Assembly (NCBI RefSeq): GCF_016900095.1
Contig: NZ_JACJJP010000019.1
Location: 1 to 58,595 of the forward strand
Reading direction: 5' to 3'
DNA from: Gemmiger formicilis
Lineage (GTDB): Bacteria; Bacillota; Clostridia; Oscillospirales; Ruminococcaceae
Length of the DNA: 58,595 nt
Shown: piece by piece, positions 19,096 through 25,224 of the stretch
Numbering within the stretch: the stretch's first letter is position 1
Layout: the number at the start of each line of letters is the position of its first letter
Program-made: the position numbers and the translations under genes
Notes under the pieces: model-generated
What the model was told of the DNA's origin: nothing
The model's input: the letters and a program-made list of their open reading frames with translations, nothing else
Databases searched by the model: none

Positions 19096-19124
19096 TTGAC
19101 AGGTCAATCCGGGCATGCTACAGT
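19096..19124 (+). promoter_or_regulatory. Promoter of the blaI-like / M56-M23 operon
   Basis: TTGACA, 17 bases, TACAGT. The -10 overlaps TACAGTGTTA, which resembles the TACAnnTGTA core bound by BlaI/MecI repressors. Confidence 0.78.
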
Positions 19125-19138
19125 GTTAGCAAGCAAAA

Positions 19139-19154
19139 GTCTATTGTAATAGAC
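19139..19154. promoter_or_regulatory. Palindromic operator candidate for the BlaI-type repressor
   Basis: GTCTATT and AATAGAC form perfect 7-bp arms around two central bases, starting about 15 bases after the -10. The position suits autorepression. Confidence 0.6.
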
Positions 19155-19230: not shown

Positions 19231-19611
19231 ATGGAAAAGATGCTGCGCCTGGCCGAAGGCGAATACCGCTTTGCTACCCTTGTATGGGAGAACGAGCCCC
19301 TGCCCAGCGGGCAGCTGGTACGTCTGGCGGCCGACGCTCTGGGCTGGAAGAAAAGCACTACCTACACCGTTCTGAAAAAGCTGTGTGAGCGGGGCATCCT
19401 GTGCAACACCGACGGTGTGGTGACCTCGCTGGTGAAGCAAAGCGCCGTACAGCAGCAGGAGAGCACTGCCGTGGTGGACCGGACCTTCGGGGGCAGCCTG
19501 CCCCGCTTTGTGGCCGCCTTTTTGAATGAGAAGCCCATCTCCGAGGCCGAGGCCGCCGAGATCCGGGCCATGCTGGATGCGGCCCGCACCGAACAGGAGG
19601 ACAACCAATGA
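19231..19611 (+). CDS. BlaI/MecI-type transcriptional repressor
   Basis: 126 residues. An N-terminal winged helix (EYRFATLVWENEPLPSG, then KKSTTYTVLKKLCERGIL) matches the BlaI/MecI/CopY family. The C-terminal 45 residues form the helical dimerisation arm (GSLPRFVAAFLNEKPISEAEAAEIRAML). In the classic pair the repressor is cleaved or displaced when the M56 sensor is activated. Here the sensor gene starts inside its stop codon (ATGA overlap), and a candidate palindromic operator sits in the leader. The ribosome site is GAGGT, 8 bases before the ATG. Confidence 0.93.
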   Translation: MEKMLRLAEGEYRFATLVWENEPLPSGQLVRLAADALGWKKSTTYTVLKKLCERGILCNTDGVVTSLVKQSAVQQQESTAVVDRTFGGSLPRFVAAFLNEKPISEAEAAEIRAMLDAARTEQEDNQ

Positions 19612-21581
19612 ATGAACTGGTAAGGTCTCTGCTGACAGCAGGGATCGGCGGCGCGGCGGCGGCCCTGGTTGCCTGGGCTGTGTGCGCCCTGCTTCGACGG
19701 GCCCGGGCCCCGGGTTGGCTGTTGTGTGCCCTGTGGCTGGCGGTGGGGCTTCGGTTTGCGGTGCCGGGCGGGATTCTTCCCGTCACCATCCCCCAGCCGG
19801 AAAGCGAAAGCCTGCAGCACCTGGCCGTTGTGGCCGAGACGGTGCGGGATACCGCCCCCGAGCAGGCAGCCGCCCAGGCGGTACAGGCGCTGGACCTGGC
19901 GGGGCTGGAGCTGACCACCGCGGAGGAAACCGCCTTTACCGTCAACTGGGTCCTGTGGGCCGGGGTTGTATGGGCTGCGGGCGCCCTGTTCTGCCTGGGC
20001 CGGGCGACCCTGGCCGGTCTGCGGCTGCGCCGTCGGGTGGCCCTTGCCTGCAAAACGGAGGACGGCTGCTACACCTGCGCCGAGGTGCACGCTCCCTTCA
20101 CCCTGGGATTCCTGCACCCGCGGATTTATCTGCCCGCCGACTTGCAGGGAGAAGCCCGCCGGGCGATACTGCTTCATGAGCGCACCCACATCCGCCGGGG
20201 CGACTGCCTGACCAAACCTTTGTATTATCTGGTAGTTTGTCTGCACTGGTGGAATCCGTTGGCCTGGCTGGCCTTCGCCCAGTTTGAGCACGCCATGGAA
20301 TGTGCCTGCGACGAGGCCGCGTTGGGCGGCTGTACCGCCGCCCAACGCGGGCTGTATTGTGAAAGCCTGCTGCGCTACGCCACCCGACGGGTTCCGGGCG
20401 GTGCCCTGGCCTTCGGCGCGCCGGGCGCAGGGCAGCGCATCCTGCACGCGCTGCGCTACCGGGCCCCCGGCAAGGTGATGCTGGGCCTGTGCGTGGCGGT
20501 GGCCACACTGGCCGCAGCCGTGCTGCTGGCGCGCCCCACCCTGGCCCAGGAAGCCCCCGCCGACACGACTGATACCGCGCAGACTTCCCTTCCGGCAGCC
20601 AGTGTCCCCGCAGGGACGGAAGACACACCGGAAGAGGCCCCCCACACCGAAGAGGCGCAAAGCCTTTCTGTTTCGGGGGACGCCGTGAGCAACGACCGGT
20701 TTGATCCGGTGGGCGGCTTCATCCTGCCGCTGGAAGAGTACAAGTACTACTCCCGCAAGATGAGCTACTACCACAAGGGGGATGACCTGGCCGCAGAGGC
20801 GGGCACACCCGTGCTGGCCGCCGCCAACGGCGTGGTGACCTTTGCCCAGTTCCATTACAGTTACGGAAACTGCATTCTCATCGACCACGGTATAGATGCA
20901 GACGGCCGGCATTGGTACACTTTGTACGCCCATCTGCGGGACATGGCCGTGGCAGAAAATCAAGTGGTGACCCAAGGCCAGCAGATCGGCACGGTGGGCA
21001 GCACCGGAAATGCCACCGGCAACGCCCTGCATTTTGAGCTGCGCTGCGACGATACCCTGCTGGCACCCACCATGTACCTGCCCTACACCCAGACCGTGCC
21101 GGTTCTGGCGGCGGAGGAAGGTTTGCTGCTGCCCGACATGCTGGAGGATTCCACCATCCACAACGCCATCGCCAAGCGGGCCATCGACAGTCCGGCCCCG
21201 GACCATCTGGCCTATCCCCTGCCTGAAACCACCTCCGTCACCGTCAAATACGTGGCTTACGATCATGCCGGACTGGACCTGCGCGCCGACGAGGGCACCG
21301 ATGTACTGGCCGCCGCCGACGGTATGGTCCTTTATGTCGGCCAGGACCGTGTCAACGGCTGGACGGTGATTCTGGGCCACGGAAGTGACAGCGCCGGCCG
21401 GCCCCTGACCACCATGTATTCCCACCTGCAAGAGAAGCCGGAGGTGCTCATGGGGCAGCTGGTGACCGCCGGGCAGGTGATTGCCCAATCGGGCAACACC
21501 GGCAATTCCACCGGCCCGCACCTGCACTTTGGCGTCTATCTGGACGGCAGCGCCGTGGACCCGCAATCCTGGCTGAACTGA
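19608..21581 (+). CDS. BlaR1-like M56 sensor peptidase fused to two M23 (LytM) domains
   Basis: 657 residues. Residues 1-310 are an M56 module: membrane segments near 10-30, 37-57, 112-133, 203-225 and 289-308, with the cytoplasmic zinc motif HERTH at 190-194 and the BlaR1-like FEHAMECACDEAAL at 226-238. After a Pro/Thr/Glu-rich linker (about 311-365), two LytM/M23 domains replace the penicillin-binding sensor of BlaR1. In the first (about 370-490), H389, D393 and H442 are present but the HxH motif reads A473-L-H475. In the second (about 535-657), H553, D557, H606, H638 and H640 are all present. By analogy the ectodomain reads cell-wall state and the M56 part relieves the BlaI-type repressor encoded just upstream. 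Confidence 0.9.
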   Translation: MNELVRSLLTAGIGGAAAALVAWAVCALLRRARAPGWLLCALWLAVGLRFAVPGGILPVTIPQPESESLQHLAVVAETVRDTAPEQAAAQAVQALDLAGLELTTAEETAFTVNWVLWAGVVWAAGALFCLGRATLAGLRLRRRVALACKTEDGCYTCAEVHAPFTLGFLHPRIYLPADLQGEARRAILLHERTHIRRGDCLTKPLYYLVVCLHWWNPLAWLAFAQFEHAMECACDEAALGGCTAAQRGLYCESLLRYATRRVPGGALAFGAPGAGQRILHALRYRAPGKVMLGLCVAVATLAAAVLLARPTLAQEAPADTTDTAQTSLPAASVPAGTEDTPEEAPHTEEAQSLSVSGDAVSNDRFDPVGGFILPLEEYKYYSRKMSYYHKGDDLAAEAGTPVLAAANGVVTFAQFHYSYGNCILIDHGIDADGRHWYTLYAHLRDMAVAENQVVTQGQQIGTVGSTGNATGNALHFELRCDDTLLAPTMYLPYTQTVPVLAAEEGLLLPDMLEDSTIHNAIAKRAIDSPAPDHLAYPLPETTSVTVKYVAYDHAGLDLRADEGTDVLAAADGMVLYVGQDRVNGWTVILGHGSDSAGRPLTTMYSHLQEKPEVLMGQLVTAGQVIAQSGNTGNSTGPHLHFGVYLDGSAVDPQSWLN

Positions 21582-21594
21582 GAGAATGCACCTT

Positions 21595-22833
21595 ATGAAA
21601 CACAAATTTTTCAACGGCACCGCCCGGCTGGCGGCGGTGCTGGTTTTTTGCATCCTTTTTTCCCTGTTCGGCAGCTGTTTTGCCGTTTTTGCCGCCACCC
21701 AGCAGGAACTGCAGCAGCAGTTGGATGCCGCCAAAGAGGCCTACGACGACGCGGCCCAGAAGCAGGAAGACCTGGAAAAGCAGGCAGAGCAGACACAGGA
21801 ACAGATTGGGGAACTGAACGACCGGACCGAACAGATTACCGCCCAGCTGAGTTCGGTATACAGCGCCCTGGTGGACGCCCAGACCCAGCTGGATGCCGCC
21901 CAGGGAGAGGCCGACGCTGCCCAGGCAGCTCTGGAGCAGAAGCAGGCGGAATACGACACCCGCTGGGACGAGGCCAAAGAACAGCTGGCCGCCATGCAAA
22001 TGCTGCATTACAGCGGCAGCCTTTCGATTCTGAGCCAGGTGACCGATCTGTTCCAGCTGCTGAACTTTGCTCGGGCCCTGACCGACATCAACGATAAGAA
22101 CACCGAGGTCCTGACCCGTCTGAACGACGAAGCCGCCGCCCTGGAGGAGACCCGGAACCAAGCCCAGGCCGCTGCCGAAAAAGCGGAGGCAGCCCGGGAC
22201 GAATTGCAGACACAGCAAGAGAATCTGCAGGCCACTTCCGACCAGCTGGCCCAGGCCCTGATGGAAGCCAACGCCAACCTGGATGAGCAGCAGGCCGAAG
22301 CCGAAGCCCAGGCCCAGATCACCGAGGAGGCAAAAAAAGCCTATCAGCAAGCCACCGCCGAGCTGGATGCCTTTGCCAAGAGCCAGAACAGCAAGTATAC
22401 CTCCGCCACCCTGTACTGCAGTCTGGATTTCGGCTGTGCCCTGACCCCTGGTATGAGTATCAGCTGCAACTTCGGGGATCCGGACGGCATCGACGGTTCT
22501 CCTCACGGCGGCACCGATTTTCCGGCCGCCAAAGGTACGCCCATCTATGCAGTGGCGGACGGGGTGGTCAGCGCCGCCCGGGCCATGTCCAGTTACGGCA
22601 ACTGTGTGCAGATCAGCCACGGCACCGCCGACGACGGCAACAACTACGCCACCCTGTACGCCCACATGTCCTCCATTGCCGTGAGCGAAGGTCAGACCGT
22701 GACCAAAGGGCAGGTCATCGGGTATGTGGGCAACACCGGTGCTGTCAGCGGCAAAAACGGCGGGTATCACCTGCATCTGGAACTGCGCATCAACGGAACC
22801 CGCACCAACGCCATGAACTACATTCCTCACTGA
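21595..22833 (+). CDS. Secreted coiled-coil M23 peptidase (EnvC/PcsB-like)
   Basis: 412 residues from the ATG at 21595; an in-frame ATG nine bases earlier touches the GAGAGA ribosome site. A signal peptide ending near SCFAVFAA is followed by about 215 residues of Gln/Ala/Glu-rich coiled coil. The C-terminal M23 domain (about 290-412) carries all metal and catalytic residues: HGGTD (H304, D308), LYAH (H357) and YHLHLEL (H392, H394). M23 enzymes cut peptidoglycan peptide bridges, and the coiled coil is usually a regulatory arm that holds the catalytic domain inactive until a partner such as FtsEX engages it. It starts 13 bases after the M56-M23 sensor gene, so it is probably in the same BlaI-controlled operon. 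Confidence 0.9.
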   Translation: MKHKFFNGTARLAAVLVFCILFSLFGSCFAVFAATQQELQQQLDAAKEAYDDAAQKQEDLEKQAEQTQEQIGELNDRTEQITAQLSSVYSALVDAQTQLDAAQGEADAAQAALEQKQAEYDTRWDEAKEQLAAMQMLHYSGSLSILSQVTDLFQLLNFARALTDINDKNTEVLTRLNDEAAALEETRNQAQAAAEKAEAARDELQTQQENLQATSDQLAQALMEANANLDEQQAEAEAQAQITEEAKKAYQQATAELDAFAKSQNSKYTSATLYCSLDFGCALTPGMSISCNFGDPDGIDGSPHGGTDFPAAKGTPIYAVADGVVSAARAMSSYGNCVQISHGTADDGNNYATLYAHMSSIAVSEGQTVTKGQVIGYVGNTGAVSGKNGGYHLHLELRINGTRTNAMNYIPH

Positions 22834-22847
22834 GTTTCCGCGCCGCA

Positions 22848-22915
22848 CTTAACGATATTCGGTCTTTGCCTTTACCTTTTACAAAAACTGTGGTACAATA
22901 CCGAATATCGTTAAG
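22848..22915. promoter_or_regulatory. 16-bp perfect inverted repeat bracketing the Lrp-type gene promoter
   Basis: CTTAACGATATTCGGT at 22848-22863 and its exact reverse complement at 22900-22915 flank 36 bases. Those bases contain the promoter TTTACC (22871-22876), 17 bases, TACAAT (22894-22899) with a TG extension. The right arm begins immediately after the -10. This is a strong candidate for cooperative binding by the Lrp-type protein encoded just downstream, or for a long mRNA stem if transcription starts further upstream. Confidence 0.75.
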
Positions 22916-22938: not shown

Positions 22939-23394
22939 ATGGACCATATTGACCGTAAGATCATTGATATTTTGCAGCGGGATGCCCGCGCACCGCTGAA
23001 ACAGATTGCCGACCAGGTGTTTTTGTCTTCCCCGGCGGTGTCTGCCCGCATCGCCCGGCTGGAGAAGGATGGCTGTCTGACCGGGTATCAGGCCCAGGTG
23101 GACCCGGTGAAGATGGGATATCTGGTCAAGGCGTTCATCAATCTGGACATGGACCCCCAGCGCAAGCCGGAGTTTTACCCCTATATCCAGGCCTGCCCCC
23201 AGGTGGTGGAATGCTGCTGCGTCACCGGAGATTACAGCATGCTGATTGAGGTGCTGTTTGCCACCACCCAGGAGCTGGACACCTTCATCAACCAGCTGCA
23301 GCAGTACGGGCGCACCCGCACCCAGATCGTCTTTTCCACCCCGGTGGAACATCGGGGTGTGCCGGTCAGCCGCCCGGAAGAAGAAACCGAATAA
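22939..23394 (+). CDS. Lrp/AsnC-family transcriptional regulator
   Basis: 151 residues. The N-terminal helix-turn-helix MDHIDRKIIDILQRDARAP and VFLSSPAVSARIARLEKDG is followed by the RAM (ACT-like) effector domain with VECCCVTGDYSMLIEVLF. The family binds amino acids or related metabolites and assembles as octamers on paired DNA sites. The promoter in front of it is enclosed by a perfect 16-bp inverted repeat, which points to autoregulation. It is a single-gene unit with a strong terminator; no target is evident nearby. Confidence 0.93.
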   Translation: MDHIDRKIIDILQRDARAPLKQIADQVFLSSPAVSARIARLEKDGCLTGYQAQVDPVKMGYLVKAFINLDMDPQRKPEFYPYIQACPQVVECCCVTGDYSMLIEVLFATTQELDTFINQLQQYGRTRTQIVFSTPVEHRGVPVSRPEEETE

Positions 23395-23439: not shown

Positions 23440-24180
23440 TCAGGGCAGGGCGTCCACCTCCGCGGCGGTCAGCGGCCCCAGGTTGATGTCATTTTCGTAT
23501 TTTTTCCCGCCGGAATATATCAGGTCCACTCTGTAATAGGCAAGGTCCAGCCCGGCGGCGTCAAAGGCGGCTTTGGCATTTTTGAGCAGGGCGTTGGCGT
23601 CGGCCTCGGTGGGCAGGCGGTCGGTGTAGACCAGGTAGAAACTGGCAGTGAGGGGCGGCAGGTTACCGGGATCATAGGGCATATCCAACGTAAGGCCCCA
23701 ATCCTCCGGAGTGCCCTCCCAGCTTTTGCCGGGCTGCACATCCAGCCAGTCCGGGTTCATCCCTGCATTGTTCAGCGCCGTGGTCATGTCCTGCTTGGCG
23801 GCTGCAATGATGCGCACCCGGGTGTTGTTCAGATTGGTCACATCCTCCTCATAGGTAGTGCTGCGCACCACACCCCAGGAAAGAATCACCGTAAAGCTGG
23901 TATCCTGGCTGGTCATGGACTGCACCCGCACCCAGTAGCTATACCCTGTATCATACCAGGCAGAGACGGCAGTAAAGTTGTTGCCGGGCCACTGTTCGTC
24001 GGCATATTCCACTGCGTGGTGCCGGGCCCAGGCCAGGCTGATGGGATCTCCCAGCGCATACCCGGCCGCAAACAGGATCAGCAGCACGATGAGGATGCCG
24101 CCCGCCAGAGCAGCGGCGCGGCGGCTTCTGGTGTGGGGACGATCAGCGGTCCTGACGGATGTCTTCTTCCCATGCATCAT
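23440..24180 (-). CDS. Single-pass membrane protein of an ECF sigma operon, unknown function
   Basis: 246 residues. A basic cytoplasmic N-terminus (about 1-24) leads into one membrane segment (ALAGGILIVLLILFAAGYAL). The following 200-residue extracytoplasmic region contains phrases such as WPGNNFTAVSAWYDTGYSYW and ending GPLTAAEVDALP. I do not recognise the fold; it is vaguely like small YfjL-type proteins of Bacillota, but that is only an impression. It begins within the last 38 bases of the anti-sigma gene with its own AAAGGAGG site, so it is coupled to the sigma / anti-sigma pair and may be a co-sensor or a target. Confidence 0.75.
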   Translation of the reverse strand: MMHGKKTSVRTADRPHTRSRRAAALAGGILIVLLILFAAGYALGDPISLAWARHHAVEYADEQWPGNNFTAVSAWYDTGYSYWVRVQSMTSQDTSFTVILSWGVVRSTTYEEDVTNLNNTRVRIIAAAKQDMTTALNNAGMNPDWLDVQPGKSWEGTPEDWGLTLDMPYDPGNLPPLTASFYLVYTDRLPTEADANALLKNAKAAFDAAGLDLAYYRVDLIYSGGKKYENDINLGPLTAAEVDALP

Positions 24181-24739
24181 GGGGTTCCTCCTTTCTCAGT
24201 GCATAGCGGAACAGGGCGGCAGCCAATGCACCCAGGGCACACAGAACCGCATACAAAAAGCCGCACAGGATTCCCAGGCTCAGGCCATCGAAAAAGTTGT
24301 ACCAGTCCCCCTGTGCCAGACGGCCGGCCAGATACTGTCCGCTGGGCCACAACATCACGGCTGTGGTCAGGACCCAGACCAGCAGGGGCAGCCACCGCGC
24401 CCGCCGGGGAGACAGCCACTGCACCCCGGCCCCCAGCACCGGCAGCAGGAGGATGTTGTAGCCCGCCTGGCCGGTGTTGGCCAGGGCCATTCCCAGAATG
24501 AGTCCCGCGGCGGTCATGGCCCCCTGCCAGGCATACAGGCGGCGGCGAATACGTCCCAGCACCCGGTCCCGGTGCAGGGACGGCGGCGGGGCTTCCTCGC
24601 CCCAGAGCTCGCGGCAGGCCGCACAGTGGGCCACATGTTCCTCCACCGCCCGGCGGGATGCCTCGCTGGCCACGCCGTCCCGCACCAGGGGCAGCAGGTC
24701 GCGGCAGATGTCACAGGGCAGGTCATATTCGTGGGTCAC
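24143..24739 (-). CDS. Putative zinc-finger anti-sigma factor with membrane segments
   Basis: 198 residues starting at GTG 24739. The N-terminus carries a zf-HC2/ZAS-like motif: CDICRDLLPLVRDGV, then HVAHCAACRELW, giving H-x3-C-x2-C as in zinc anti-sigma domains. About four hydrophobic segments follow (around 70-90, 95-110, 117-135 and 150-175). Its start overlaps the stop of the ECF sigma gene (GTGA), the usual arrangement for a cognate pair. It should hold the sigma factor at the membrane until a signal arrives; the signal is unknown. Confidence 0.82.
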   Translation of the reverse strand: MTHEYDLPCDICRDLLPLVRDGVASEASRRAVEEHVAHCAACRELWGEEAPPPSLHRDRVLGRIRRRLYAWQGAMTAAGLILGMALANTGQAGYNILLLPVLGAGVQWLSPRRARWLPLLVWVLTTAVMLWPSGQYLAGRLAQGDWYNFFDGLSLGILCGFLYAVLCALGALAAALFRYALRKEEPHDAWEEDIRQDR

Positions 24740-25224
24740 AGCAACCCCTCCTTTCGCAATGTATCCTTGAGCCAGTGGCGGGCCCGGCAGTCGATGACCC
24801 GGGCCGACCCAGGGCTGATGCCCAGCTCGGCGGCGATGCGGTCATAGGGCACACCCTGCACCCGCAGGGCCACCACCCGCCGGGTGCGCTCATCCTTCCG
24901 GGCCAGCAGCGCCCGGATGCGTCCCAACAGTTCCCGCTGCACGGCGGTGTCGGGCAGAGTGTCCTCCACATACAGTCCCAGCAGGTCATCATAGCTGACG
25001 GTGGGGCGCCGCCTTCGCAGATCCTGCAGCCACAGATGCCGGGCAATACCGAAAAGCCAGGTTTTCTCCCCTGACCGGGCTTCGTACCGGTCGATGCTCT
25101 GCAAGGCCTGCAGAAAGGTTTCGCTGAGCAGGTCCTCCGCCCAGGCCGGGTCATGGGTCAGGCTGACCAGATAGCGGTAGACGTCGTCACGGTAGGCGGC
25201 GTACAGTTCTTCCATCATCTTCAC
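24736..25224 (-). CDS. ECF-type RNA polymerase sigma factor
   Basis: 162 residues with regions sigma 2 and sigma 4 only. Region 2 runs LYAAYRDDVYRYLVSLTHDPAWAE with ETFLQALQSIDRYEARSGEK and WLFGIARHLWLQDLRRRR. Region 4 is RTRRVVALRVQGVPYDRIAAELGISPGSARVIDCRARHWL. Start chosen is GTG 25224, with GGAAGGA 7 bases upstream; ATGs at 25218 and 25215 are alternatives. It heads a three-gene overlapping operon with its anti-sigma factor, and an ECF-like promoter lies just upstream, suggesting positive autoregulation. Confidence 0.92.
   Translation of the reverse strand: MKMMEELYAAYRDDVYRYLVSLTHDPAWAEDLLSETFLQALQSIDRYEARSGEKTWLFGIARHLWLQDLRRRRPTVSYDDLLGLYVEDTLPDTAVQRELLGRIRALLARKDERTRRVVALRVQGVPYDRIAAELGISPGSARVIDCRARHWLKDTLRKEGLL

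Follow-up and report, generated by a model that had tools for sequence, protein, structure and literature searches.

A probable BlaI/M56 signalling operon with an M23-bearing sensor and its predicted M23 hydrolase targets in a Gemmiger relative

In a 58,595-nucleotide stretch of DNA from a Gemmiger relative (the window), we found a BlaR1-type M56 protease fused in one frame to two M23/LytM domains and encoded directly behind a BlaI-type repressor gene. Fairly probably, the genes form a BlaI/M56 signalling operon that regulates itself, and its M23-bearing ectodomain would sense M23-cleavable cross-links and derepress M23 peptidoglycan hydrolases. The fusion, the operon, the operator and its distribution, the residue losses and the conservation are all indicated by sequence. 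Signalling of the BlaR1 type has been described for antibiotics and, among cyanobacteria, for copper; here the sequence evidence links it, in gut bacteria, to the regulation of enzymes that cut the wall, and sensor and targets share one fold. According to PMC7299342, the balance of wall cutting in cells is still poorly understood, and the system described here is small and testable, with a single repressor and a single receptor, a defined operator and no more than two or three target genes. The M56-M23 architecture has already been mentioned in a review; our literature search found no description of an M56-M23/BlaI circuit.

Sensor gene, operon and BlaR1-type modules

The sensor is encoded by a single open frame (19608..21581, + strand, ATG start, 657 aa). 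The preliminary description had read this frame as an M56 module with a HERTH motif joined by a Pro/Thr/Glu-rich linker to tandem M23 domains, and coupled to a BlaI-type repressor. The open reading frame and Pfam bear out both points: the best Peptidase_M56 stretch covers residues 8-260, two Peptidase_M23 stretches were found (E 4.6e-57 for the whole protein), HERTH occupies residues 190-194, and the BlaI gene overlaps the sensor gene by 4 nt, with a common ATGA at the sensor start (Table 1). The third gene begins 4 nt past the sensor stop, and the N-terminus of its product is hydrophobic (by eye). Hydropathy peaks at about residues 4-31, 34-62, 109-138 and 286-314 suggest a sensor with four membrane helices; considering these predicted helices and the analogy with BlaR1, the HExxH domain would be placed inside and the M23 domains outside.

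Table 1. Features of the operon in the window and the evidence for each
Feature	Position	Strand	Evidence
Sigma-70-type promoter of the operon, TTGACA-17-TACAGT	19096..19124	+	Consensus scan, 10/12 matches; a match alone is not proof of function
Weaker palindrome TGCTACAGTGTTAGCA over the -10, possible second, degenerate operator	19117..19132	+	By eye
Predicted BlaI operator GTCTATTGTAATAGAC, directly 3' of the -10	19139..19154	+	Pattern GTYTA-N4..7-TARAC
blaI-type repressor, 126 aa	19231..19611	+	PF03965, E 3.1e-17
M56 module, sensor residues 1-313, four predicted helices	19608..20546	+	PF05569, E 2.4e-37
Pro/Thr/Glu-rich linker, sensor residues 314-364	20547..20699	+	Sequence; dN/dS 0.40-0.98
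M23 domain 1, sensor residues 365-497	20700..21098	+	Pfam, residue tables, AlphaFold2, Foldseek
M23 domain 2, sensor residues 536-657	21213..21578	+	Pfam, residue tables
Third gene, predicted output hydrolase with a coiled-coil-like middle part and an intact M23 domain	21586..22833	+	PF01551, E 2.2e-30

We then looked for the architecture elsewhere. The M56-M23 frame is present in 24 of the 35 same-genus genomes, and a 25th (G011) has a truncated one; this recurrence rules out a sequencing or assembly error joining two genes. The gene before the fusion encodes BlaI in all fusion loci with flanks (36/36). We rejected plasmid-borne relatives: comparison of the sensor with plasmids by tblastn returned no record in which a single place covers 80% of the protein, and of 912 records, the 20 places that were listed correspond to its M23 part. 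A scan of the approximately 150 extra C-terminal residues of two single-M23 fusions found no Pfam domain.

The M56 module retains the residues expected of a BlaR1-type protease. H190, E191, H194, E231 and D235, which form the HExxH...ExxxD signature, are invariant in 34 M56 sequences; H190, H194 and E231 are the predicted zinc ligands, and the His-to-Glu spacing of 41 residues is the same as for His201-Glu242 in BlaR1. D199, Y250 and R277 are also invariant in the 34 sequences and are counterparts of BlaR1 Asp210, Tyr261 and Arg294, whose roles are given in PMC9834060; a profile alignment to BlaR1 lines up the Asp, the Tyr and an Arg. A profile search matched the M56 module to BlaR1 (8EXS, E 4.2e-18), and phmmer with the M56 part returned no solved structure at E 0.01. 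BlaR1 has a self-cleavage loop with Phe at P1'. In the M56 loop containing A268-F269, F269 is at least 90% conserved, but in the HMMER alignment it falls two residues away from the position of Phe284.

The repressor has the Penicillinase_R fold (PF03965) and the cleavage-site Phe of the BlaI family. Alignment to MecI places its A96-F97 at N101-F102, where the BlaI cleavage site lies, and A96 and F97 are each at least 90% conserved in 34 BlaI sequences. By analogy with BlaR1, the sensor may cleave and release BlaI. The Pfam scan of the sensor showed only M56 and M23 and no penicillin-binding or beta-lactamase domain; as a penicillin-binding sensor domain is missing, the sensor is filed as an M56/BlaI system and not as BlaR1. 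The same result led us to reject a classical beta-lactam resistance sensor with an unusual ectodomain, to which we give next to no chance even though its BlaI and M56 modules are the ones known from BlaR1/MecR1.

Operator sites and M23 hydrolase genes

As in the BlaI family, the operon carries a predicted palindromic operator in its own promoter (19139-19154), and this palindrome, GTCTA-N6-TAGAC, matches a published BlaI operator. In a number of relatives, two sites occur in the same promoter region. Of the 79 loci with 170 nt available, 64 have the pattern GTYTA-N4..7-TARAC upstream of the BlaI domain (mean of 0.22 in shuffles). This count is not independent, since the operator was first spotted in blaI promoters; the M23 promoters are independent.

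In this genome, the strict operator GTCTAYNNNNRTAGAC was found once, at this operon only, and on this ground we rejected a broad regulon. The looser zero-mismatch pattern adds only a second M23 hydrolase gene (G000:C4:62781-64346, + strand; here the C4 hydrolase), which lies near an operator match and whose product is probably membrane-anchored. Both results also argue against the beta-lactam sensor considered above.

Scanning the genus gave 42 strict sites, 26 upstream of blaI, 15 upstream of M23 genes and 1 elsewhere; in G012, a strict site falls within an unrelated frame (L191). When the pattern was reversed as a control, these genomes gave 23 matches; this comparison is of numbers of sites, which by themselves are therefore weak evidence. 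Allowing one mismatch at most, the operator was found no more than 250 nt from the start of C4-type hydrolases in 9/9 loci holding the start, and of remote orthologues of the third gene in 9/9 cases (nine other genus genomes), while under the same settings it was found at 0/2 third-gene orthologues from fusion-free genomes and 0/9 paralogues.

The fusion and the operator also occur together. When the truncated G011 is counted as a fusion, 24 genomes have both the fusion and the strict operator, 9 have neither and each is found alone in 1; the C4-type hydrolase is present in 20/25 fusion genomes vs 1/10 of the others. G001 (83% complete) has the operator at an M23 pair, and no fusion was found in it. 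In a second genus with the fusion, a remote operator site is located at an M23 hydrolase in both genomes (2/2), and none of the 4 remote sites examined in genomes where the examined M56 carries a different ectodomain is at an M23 hydrolase. Against the circuit, a scan for GTCTA-N6,7-TAGAC found no site in five non-genus fusion genomes (G091, G065, G160, G147 and G042); in a sixth, G108, both sites lie ahead of a blaI that goes with another M56 gene. Overall, the sequence evidence supports a regulon of M23 hydrolase genes, at whose sites BlaI would bind.

Catalytic and zinc residues of the fused M23 domains

Domain 1 retains the zinc ligands H389, D393 and H475, as well as H442, and Ala473 replaces the first His of HxH. 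The full set of an active M23 enzyme (HxxxD, HxH and a His about 30 residues before HxH) is present in domain 2 only (H553, D557, H606, H638 and H640), which could cut peptidoglycan. In all complete tandem sensors of the genus (10/10), one M23 domain has the zinc ligands and lacks one catalytic His. Loss of a catalytic His with zinc ligands kept was found in 18/48 fused vs 1/53 free M23 domains, a difference whose Fisher p of 3e-6 overstates independence, since the losses cluster on the tree that takes in all M23 domains (8 changes vs 17.8 in shuffles). Of the 27 single-M23 fusion domains in which the site is visible, 18 have the complete catalytic set, and loss of cutting is therefore not general among these sensors.

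In the alignment, the counterpart of Ala473 is the Ala engineered into Pgp3 H247A, a mutant crystallised with a pentapeptide and with a cross-linked tetra-tri peptide bound at the zinc. The natural substitution in domain 1 thus corresponds to a published substrate-trapping mutant. The zinc-keeping, His-less domains together with the Pgp3 complexes make peptidoglycan sensing through LytM folds, as put forward in the preliminary description, more plausible. Domain 1 keeps the M23 fold: AlphaFold2 modelled it alone with a pLDDT of 89.2, and Foldseek matched the model to LytM folds, with DipM and Csd1-Csd2 among the top matches. Prediction of the full-length sensor, from a five-sequence alignment, was poor (mean pLDDT 43.5) and no conclusion rests on it; an ectodomain alignment that mixed the two M23 domains was left out of the analysis.

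These residues bear on what the ectodomain does. The protein may be mainly a membrane-tethered M23 hydrolase under M56/BlaI control, with the ectodomain as effector and the signal coming from elsewhere, for example the extracellular loop that joins helices 2 and 3, or a dipeptide from the wall that binds BlaI in the cytoplasm. We regard this as unlikely, considering that (i) catalytic losses concentrate in fused domains, in the proportions given above, and (ii) domain 1 is better conserved than domain 2 and is the one to which the lone M23 domain of other fusions aligns. In its favour, all catalytic residues are present in domain 2 and in 18/27 single-domain fusion entries, and PMC3305447 reports that a cytoplasmic peptidoglycan dipeptide directly binds BlaI/MecI in B. 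licheniformis.

Loss of the catalytic His with the zinc ligands kept would also be consistent with an extracellular zinc sensor, whose occupancy reports whether zinc-dependent M23 hydrolases can work and lets BlaI adjust them, and the copper response of the BlaI/BlaR1-family pair PetR/PetP in cyanobacteria (PMC7896320) points the same way. This has a slim chance in our estimate: purifying selection extends across the whole of domain 1, beyond the ligands, and the examined operator sites are, as far as the nearby genes were annotated, at blaI or M23 genes.

Neutral decay of a dispensable ectodomain, with a circuit that senses nothing through it, appears very improbable. Domain 2 does show a dN/dS of 0.80 against the L010 relative, whose domain 2 has lost the H606-equivalent residue. 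On the contrary, domain 1, without the catalytic His in the window, has a dN/dS of 0.16-0.40 (below that of M56 in 3/4 comparisons and slightly above in 1/4), and the losses spared the zinc ligands in the 10 complete tandem sensors of the genus.

Proposed circuit and known systems

We infer the ligand and the direction of response of the favoured cross-link-sensing circuit as follows. At low signal, BlaI on GTCTA-N6-TAGAC would keep the sensor, the third gene (21586-22833) and the C4 hydrolase low. The ectodomain would bind the peptide cross-links that M23 enzymes cut, with domain 1, its zinc kept and its catalytic His gone, holding the peptide without cutting it. As in BlaR1, binding would be signalled through the membrane; the M56 protease would then cut BlaI near A96-F97, and hydrolases would be produced until cross-links drop. 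The preliminary description had proposed a BlaR1-like circuit responding to peptidoglycan structure or wall damage; the M56 residue counterparts, the coupled BlaI and the predicted BlaI-type operator in the promoter agree with the circuit, but the regulon fits the availability of M23-cleavable cross-links better than wall damage as the signal.

More generally, we suggest, tentatively and as a little short of an even chance, that an M23 endopeptidase became a non-cutting receptor several times independently, by losing the His and keeping zinc, and that, fused to M56, it reads wall cross-links and sets active endopeptidases of its own family via BlaI. The His loss in domain 1 and the predicted operator sites suggest that the bacterium senses its wall through an inactivated version of the enzyme that it goes on to produce. 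If the more general reading is true, it would give WalRK a counterpart in the form of a one-piece protease, and a general route for building a sensor from the enzyme under its control.

The nearest known systems include BlaR1/MecR1-BlaI/MecI of Staphylococcus aureus and Bacillus licheniformis, which share the M56 gluzincin active-site residues, the four-helix topology, a repressor gene adjoining the sensor, an operator in its own promoter and a sensor domain related to a wall-chemistry enzyme (class D beta-lactamases for BlaR1, according to PMC9834060). However, the window sensor has M23 domains instead of the penicillin-binding domain, and its apparent regulon is M23 hydrolases, not beta-lactamase or PBP2a.

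WalRK of Bacillus subtilis controls wall endopeptidases homeostatically by sensing their extracellular work (PMC7299342), and the window system may work like it without sharing its parts. WalRK is a two-component kinase and response regulator acting on D,L-endopeptidases whose cleavage products are sensed (same source), whereas the window system has a one-piece M56 protease receptor with BlaI and involves M23 enzymes; its control of endopeptidase genes is predicted from the operator sites at M23 hydrolase genes. The degenerate LytM factors EnvC, NlpD, DipM and Csd2 likewise combine an M23 fold, lost catalysis and a new regulatory role (PMC9662197), but they act through protein contacts in the envelope, and the available part of that source describes no M56 fusion.

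PetR/PetP of Synechocystis is another BlaI/BlaR1-family pair beyond beta-lactams with a small regulon, but responds to copper and switches electron carriers (PMC7896320). BlaI_0696 of Clostridium thermocellum has a small, self-regulated regulon (PMC8457756), but its members are BlaI, two BlaR1 proteins and one hypothetical protein. The authors interpret it as a response to beta-lactams, and no M23 sensor is described in the part of that report available. The operator of BlaI_0696 consists of inverted GTCTAT repeats, and the window operator resembles this DAP-seq/EMSA motif.

Operon architecture and distribution of the fusion

The preliminary description had joined an M56 module and two M23 domains in one frame and coupled them to a BlaI-type repressor; Pfam confirmed the former, and the repressor gene indeed lies upstream, sharing an ATGA overlap with the sensor gene. 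The third gene of the operon (gene 3) starts 4 nt past the sensor stop and encodes a coiled-coil-like protein whose C-terminal M23 domain is intact. Hydropathy, read by analogy with BlaR1, would place the M56 active site on the cytoplasmic side and both M23 domains outside. An Lrp/AsnC-type regulator with its own promoter-like match directly follows gene 3, and a row of genes for an ECF-like sigma factor, an anti-sigma-like protein and a YfjL-like protein lies downstream.

Positions of the operon, its surroundings and related features of the same genome (G000)
Feature	Position	Strand	Remarks
Predicted BlaI operator	window 19139-19154		GTCTATTGTAATAGAC; downstream of TTGACA-17-TACAGT
BlaI-type repressor gene	window 19231-19611		
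M56-M23 sensor gene	window 19608-21581		657 aa
Gene 3	window 21586-22833		
Promoter-like match	window 22871-22899		before the Lrp/AsnC-type gene
Lrp/AsnC-type regulator	window 22939-23394	+	
Sigma-70-family (ECF-like) sigma factor, zinc-finger anti-sigma-like protein, YfjL-like protein	window 23440-25224	-	
Second operator site	C4:62724		
Second M23 hydrolase gene	C4:62781-64346		521 aa
Short frame with M23 domain	L157:1628-2070 (C14:4627)		
Second M56 gene	L011:1767-4514 (C28)		915 aa

A fusion created by assembly or sequencing error is refuted, as the M56-M23 frame is present in 24 of the 35 genus genomes and, truncated, in a 25th (G011). Eleven genus fusions are of the tandem type, with two M23 domains (10 complete), and the remainder carry one. 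We also checked whether the BlaI neighbour is conserved, and BlaI precedes the sensor in all 36 fusion loci fetched together with their flanks (24 genus loci and 12 of the wider family). Among the fetched loci, M56 genes with a different ectodomain almost always adjoin BlaI as well (none within the stretch in L083 and L100); therefore, BlaI-M56 coupling as such is general.

Several variants were observed. Eight single-M23 sensors of the genus extend about 150 residues beyond the M23 domain, and this extension (residues about 475-650) had no Pfam match in the two that were scanned (L025, L028). In L115 and L116 a second M56 paralogue lies directly behind the first, that of L116 being also M23-fused, with Leu at the catalytic His position, and in L047 (G221) the stop codon TAG breaks the M56-M23 gene into two frames.

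The predicted operator and its putative hydrolase regulon

A consensus scan found a promoter match upstream of blaI, followed by the predicted operator. The general pattern, GTYTA-N4..7-TARAC, was found at 98 sites, spread over 64 of 79 loci, at most 170 nt from the BlaI domain (shuffled-sequence mean 0.22), a count that is a description and not a test, because the pattern was picked from the same sequences. The putative hydrolase regulon is an independent test of the operator. GTCTA-N6-TAGAC occurs twice in the window's genome, at the blaI promoter and 57 nt upstream of the second M23 hydrolase gene, while the stricter GTCTAY-N4-RTAGAC occurs once. This hydrolase has a hydrophobic stretch near its N-terminus and is probably membrane-anchored.

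Across the 35 genus genomes, the strict operator has 42 sites: 26 in blaI promoters (assigned by position), 15 in promoters of M23 hydrolase genes and 1 inside an unrelated frame. A reversed control pattern matched 23 times in these genomes. All 12 remote loci were fetched, and 11 of them were M23 promoters. Fusion and strict operator occur together in 24 genomes (truncated G011 included) and are both missing in 9; the operator of the fusion genome G030 has diverged, and in G001 (83% complete) the operator stands at an M23 pair and the fusion was not found.

Gene position and orthology were considered as well. In each of the 10 tandem loci with enough sequence downstream, the sensor is followed by gene 3; in eight single-M23-sensor genomes and G001, gene 3 is found at a remote place together with an orthologue of the second hydrolase gene (C4-type gene), with operators upstream. 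In G027 and G012 the gene after the sensor is an M23 gene. A C4-type hydrolase, matched over most of its length, is present in 20/25 fusion genomes versus 1/10 others (G001). The orthology scan started from 60 loci, of which 31 were dropped (gene inside an operon, start outside the stretch, or start misplaced by a second M23 match). An operator (at most 1 mismatch, within 250 nt) was found at 9/9 C4-type genes with their start inside the locus and at 9/9 remote gene-3 orthologues, always paired, and at 0/2 gene-3 orthologues of fusion-free genomes (G022, G015) and 0/9 paralogues, in agreement with the motif scan at C4-type and remote gene-3 genes. A one-mismatch operator also lies 56 nt upstream of a short frame in the window's genome (L157), whose M23 domain lacks its first zinc-ligand region; this frame may have belonged to the regulon and decayed, or the match could be chance.

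Outside the genus, a second fusion-bearing genus (G046, G163) has a remote operator upstream of an M23 hydrolase in both cases examined, a third G046 site close to a further M56 gene not being counted. Where the M56 examined in a genome has a different ectodomain, none of four examined remote sites (L197, L204, L207, L208) precedes an M23 hydrolase; four further sites (G126 C8, G052 C11, two at C15) are outside this count. No such site occurs in five other fusion genomes beyond the genus; the BlaI of the two that were aligned has diverged far (22% and 32% identity), which makes a different operator probable in these genomes. In a sixth, G108, both sites precede a blaI that belongs to another M56 gene.

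Catalytic residues of the sensor M23 domains

Besides their three zinc ligands, M23 enzymes require two more His; the roles of these residues are described in a review (PMC9662197). Domain 1 of the sensor keeps the ligands H389, D393 and H475 as well as H442, the first of the two extra His, with Ala473 replacing the first His of HxH, while domain 2 has the complete set. Each of the 10 complete tandem sensors in the genus has exactly one domain that lacks exactly one catalytic His, with all zinc ligands kept. The altered domain is domain 1 in eight (Ala, Ser or Gly); L019 and L020 have a complete domain 1 and, in domain 2, Gln or Ala in place of the other His. The pattern is looser outside the genus (L049, both domains altered; L138, two complete and one degenerate). 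Among distinct domains of the fetched loci that keep their zinc ligands, a catalytic His is lost in 18/48 fused versus 1/53 free ones (Fisher p 3e-6, the sequences being related and not independent). The losses are clustered on the tree (8 changes versus 17.8 in shuffles), and 8 changes still mean several separate loss events. Retained ligands would also suit an ectodomain that senses zinc, a reading we consider improbable.

An ectodomain simply decaying after such losses is more doubtful still. The dN/dS of domain 1 against four relatives (0.16, 0.23, 0.35, 0.40) is near that of the M56 part (0.18, 0.25, 0.32, 0.51) and below that of domain 2 (0.24, 0.33, 0.40, 0.80), arguing that selection keeps domain 1. 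Its AlphaFold2 model (pLDDT 89.2, 38-sequence alignment) matched LytM folds, DipM first and Csd1-Csd2 next, the latter a pairing of a complete with a degenerate M23 protein (PMC9662197).

The best PDB sequence match was Pgp3 of Campylobacter jejuni, window GNALHF aligning with GPALHF of the H247A mutant. Pgp3 H216A and H247A were designed to impair catalysis, and crystals of H247A show the zinc site occupied by a pentapeptide or by a cross-linked tetra-tri peptide (PMC6978369). Going by the alignment and an inferred constant shift of 19 in the numbering, the His positions changed naturally in M56-linked domains are the two mutated in Pgp3. The idea that domain 1 may hold a cross-link without cutting it finds its main support in these complexes and shared positions. 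Among the 27 single-domain fusion entries in which the site can be seen, 18 have a complete catalytic set, and this speaks against a sensor that as a rule does not cut. The sensor could then be a tethered enzyme under BlaI control, which we regard as unlikely, if less so than zinc sensing.

Protease, repressor and putative circuit

The M56 residues named for the BlaR1 structure in the accessible text of PMC9834060 all have counterparts in the sensor (H190, E191, H194, D199, E231, D235, Y250 and R277), and none of these varies among 34 aligned M56 domains, whose profile matched BlaR1 (8EXS, E 4.2e-18). The alignment to MecI sets repressor A96-F97 against N101-F102, where the bond cut by BlaR1 in BlaI lies (PMC9834060). 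A268-F269 as the sensor's matching self-cleavage bond is only a guess, because the alignment to BlaR1 puts F269 two residues off.

Taken from sequence, these parts suggest a feedback circuit. BlaI would repress the sensor and the hydrolases; cross-links bound by the ectodomain would activate M56, which would cut BlaI, so that M23 hydrolases would be made and cross-links lowered. The nearest functional parallel appears to be WalRK of B. subtilis, which senses cleavage products (PMC7299342), whereas the proposed circuit would sense cross-links.

The name 'M23/M56 family metallopeptidase' presumably exists as an NCBI product name. Among the matches listed from the open-licence literature (most subscription papers being outside its scope), no description of an M56-M23/BlaI circuit was found, nor M23, BlaI and LytM together or the phrase M23 M56 family; M56, BlaR1 and M23 came together only in the review PMC9662197. 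Its accessible text names M56 peptidase as one of the further catalytic domains that accompany M23, which jointly make up under 1% of hits, and states that an M56 role in peptidoglycan cleavage is not demonstrated. The architecture was thus known in passing, since the review mentions M56 with M23, and the circuit and regulon appear undescribed in the literature searched. We filed the system as a variant of the BlaI/M56 kind.

The second M56 gene of the window's genome has a large ectodomain with no Pfam family above cut-off and no GTCTA-N6-TAGAC site at its locus, and its BlaI gene comes after, not before. Other M56 sensors of the family (L052, L057) carry DUF4825 in the ectodomain, together with BlaI and a 17-nt version of the GTCTA operator.
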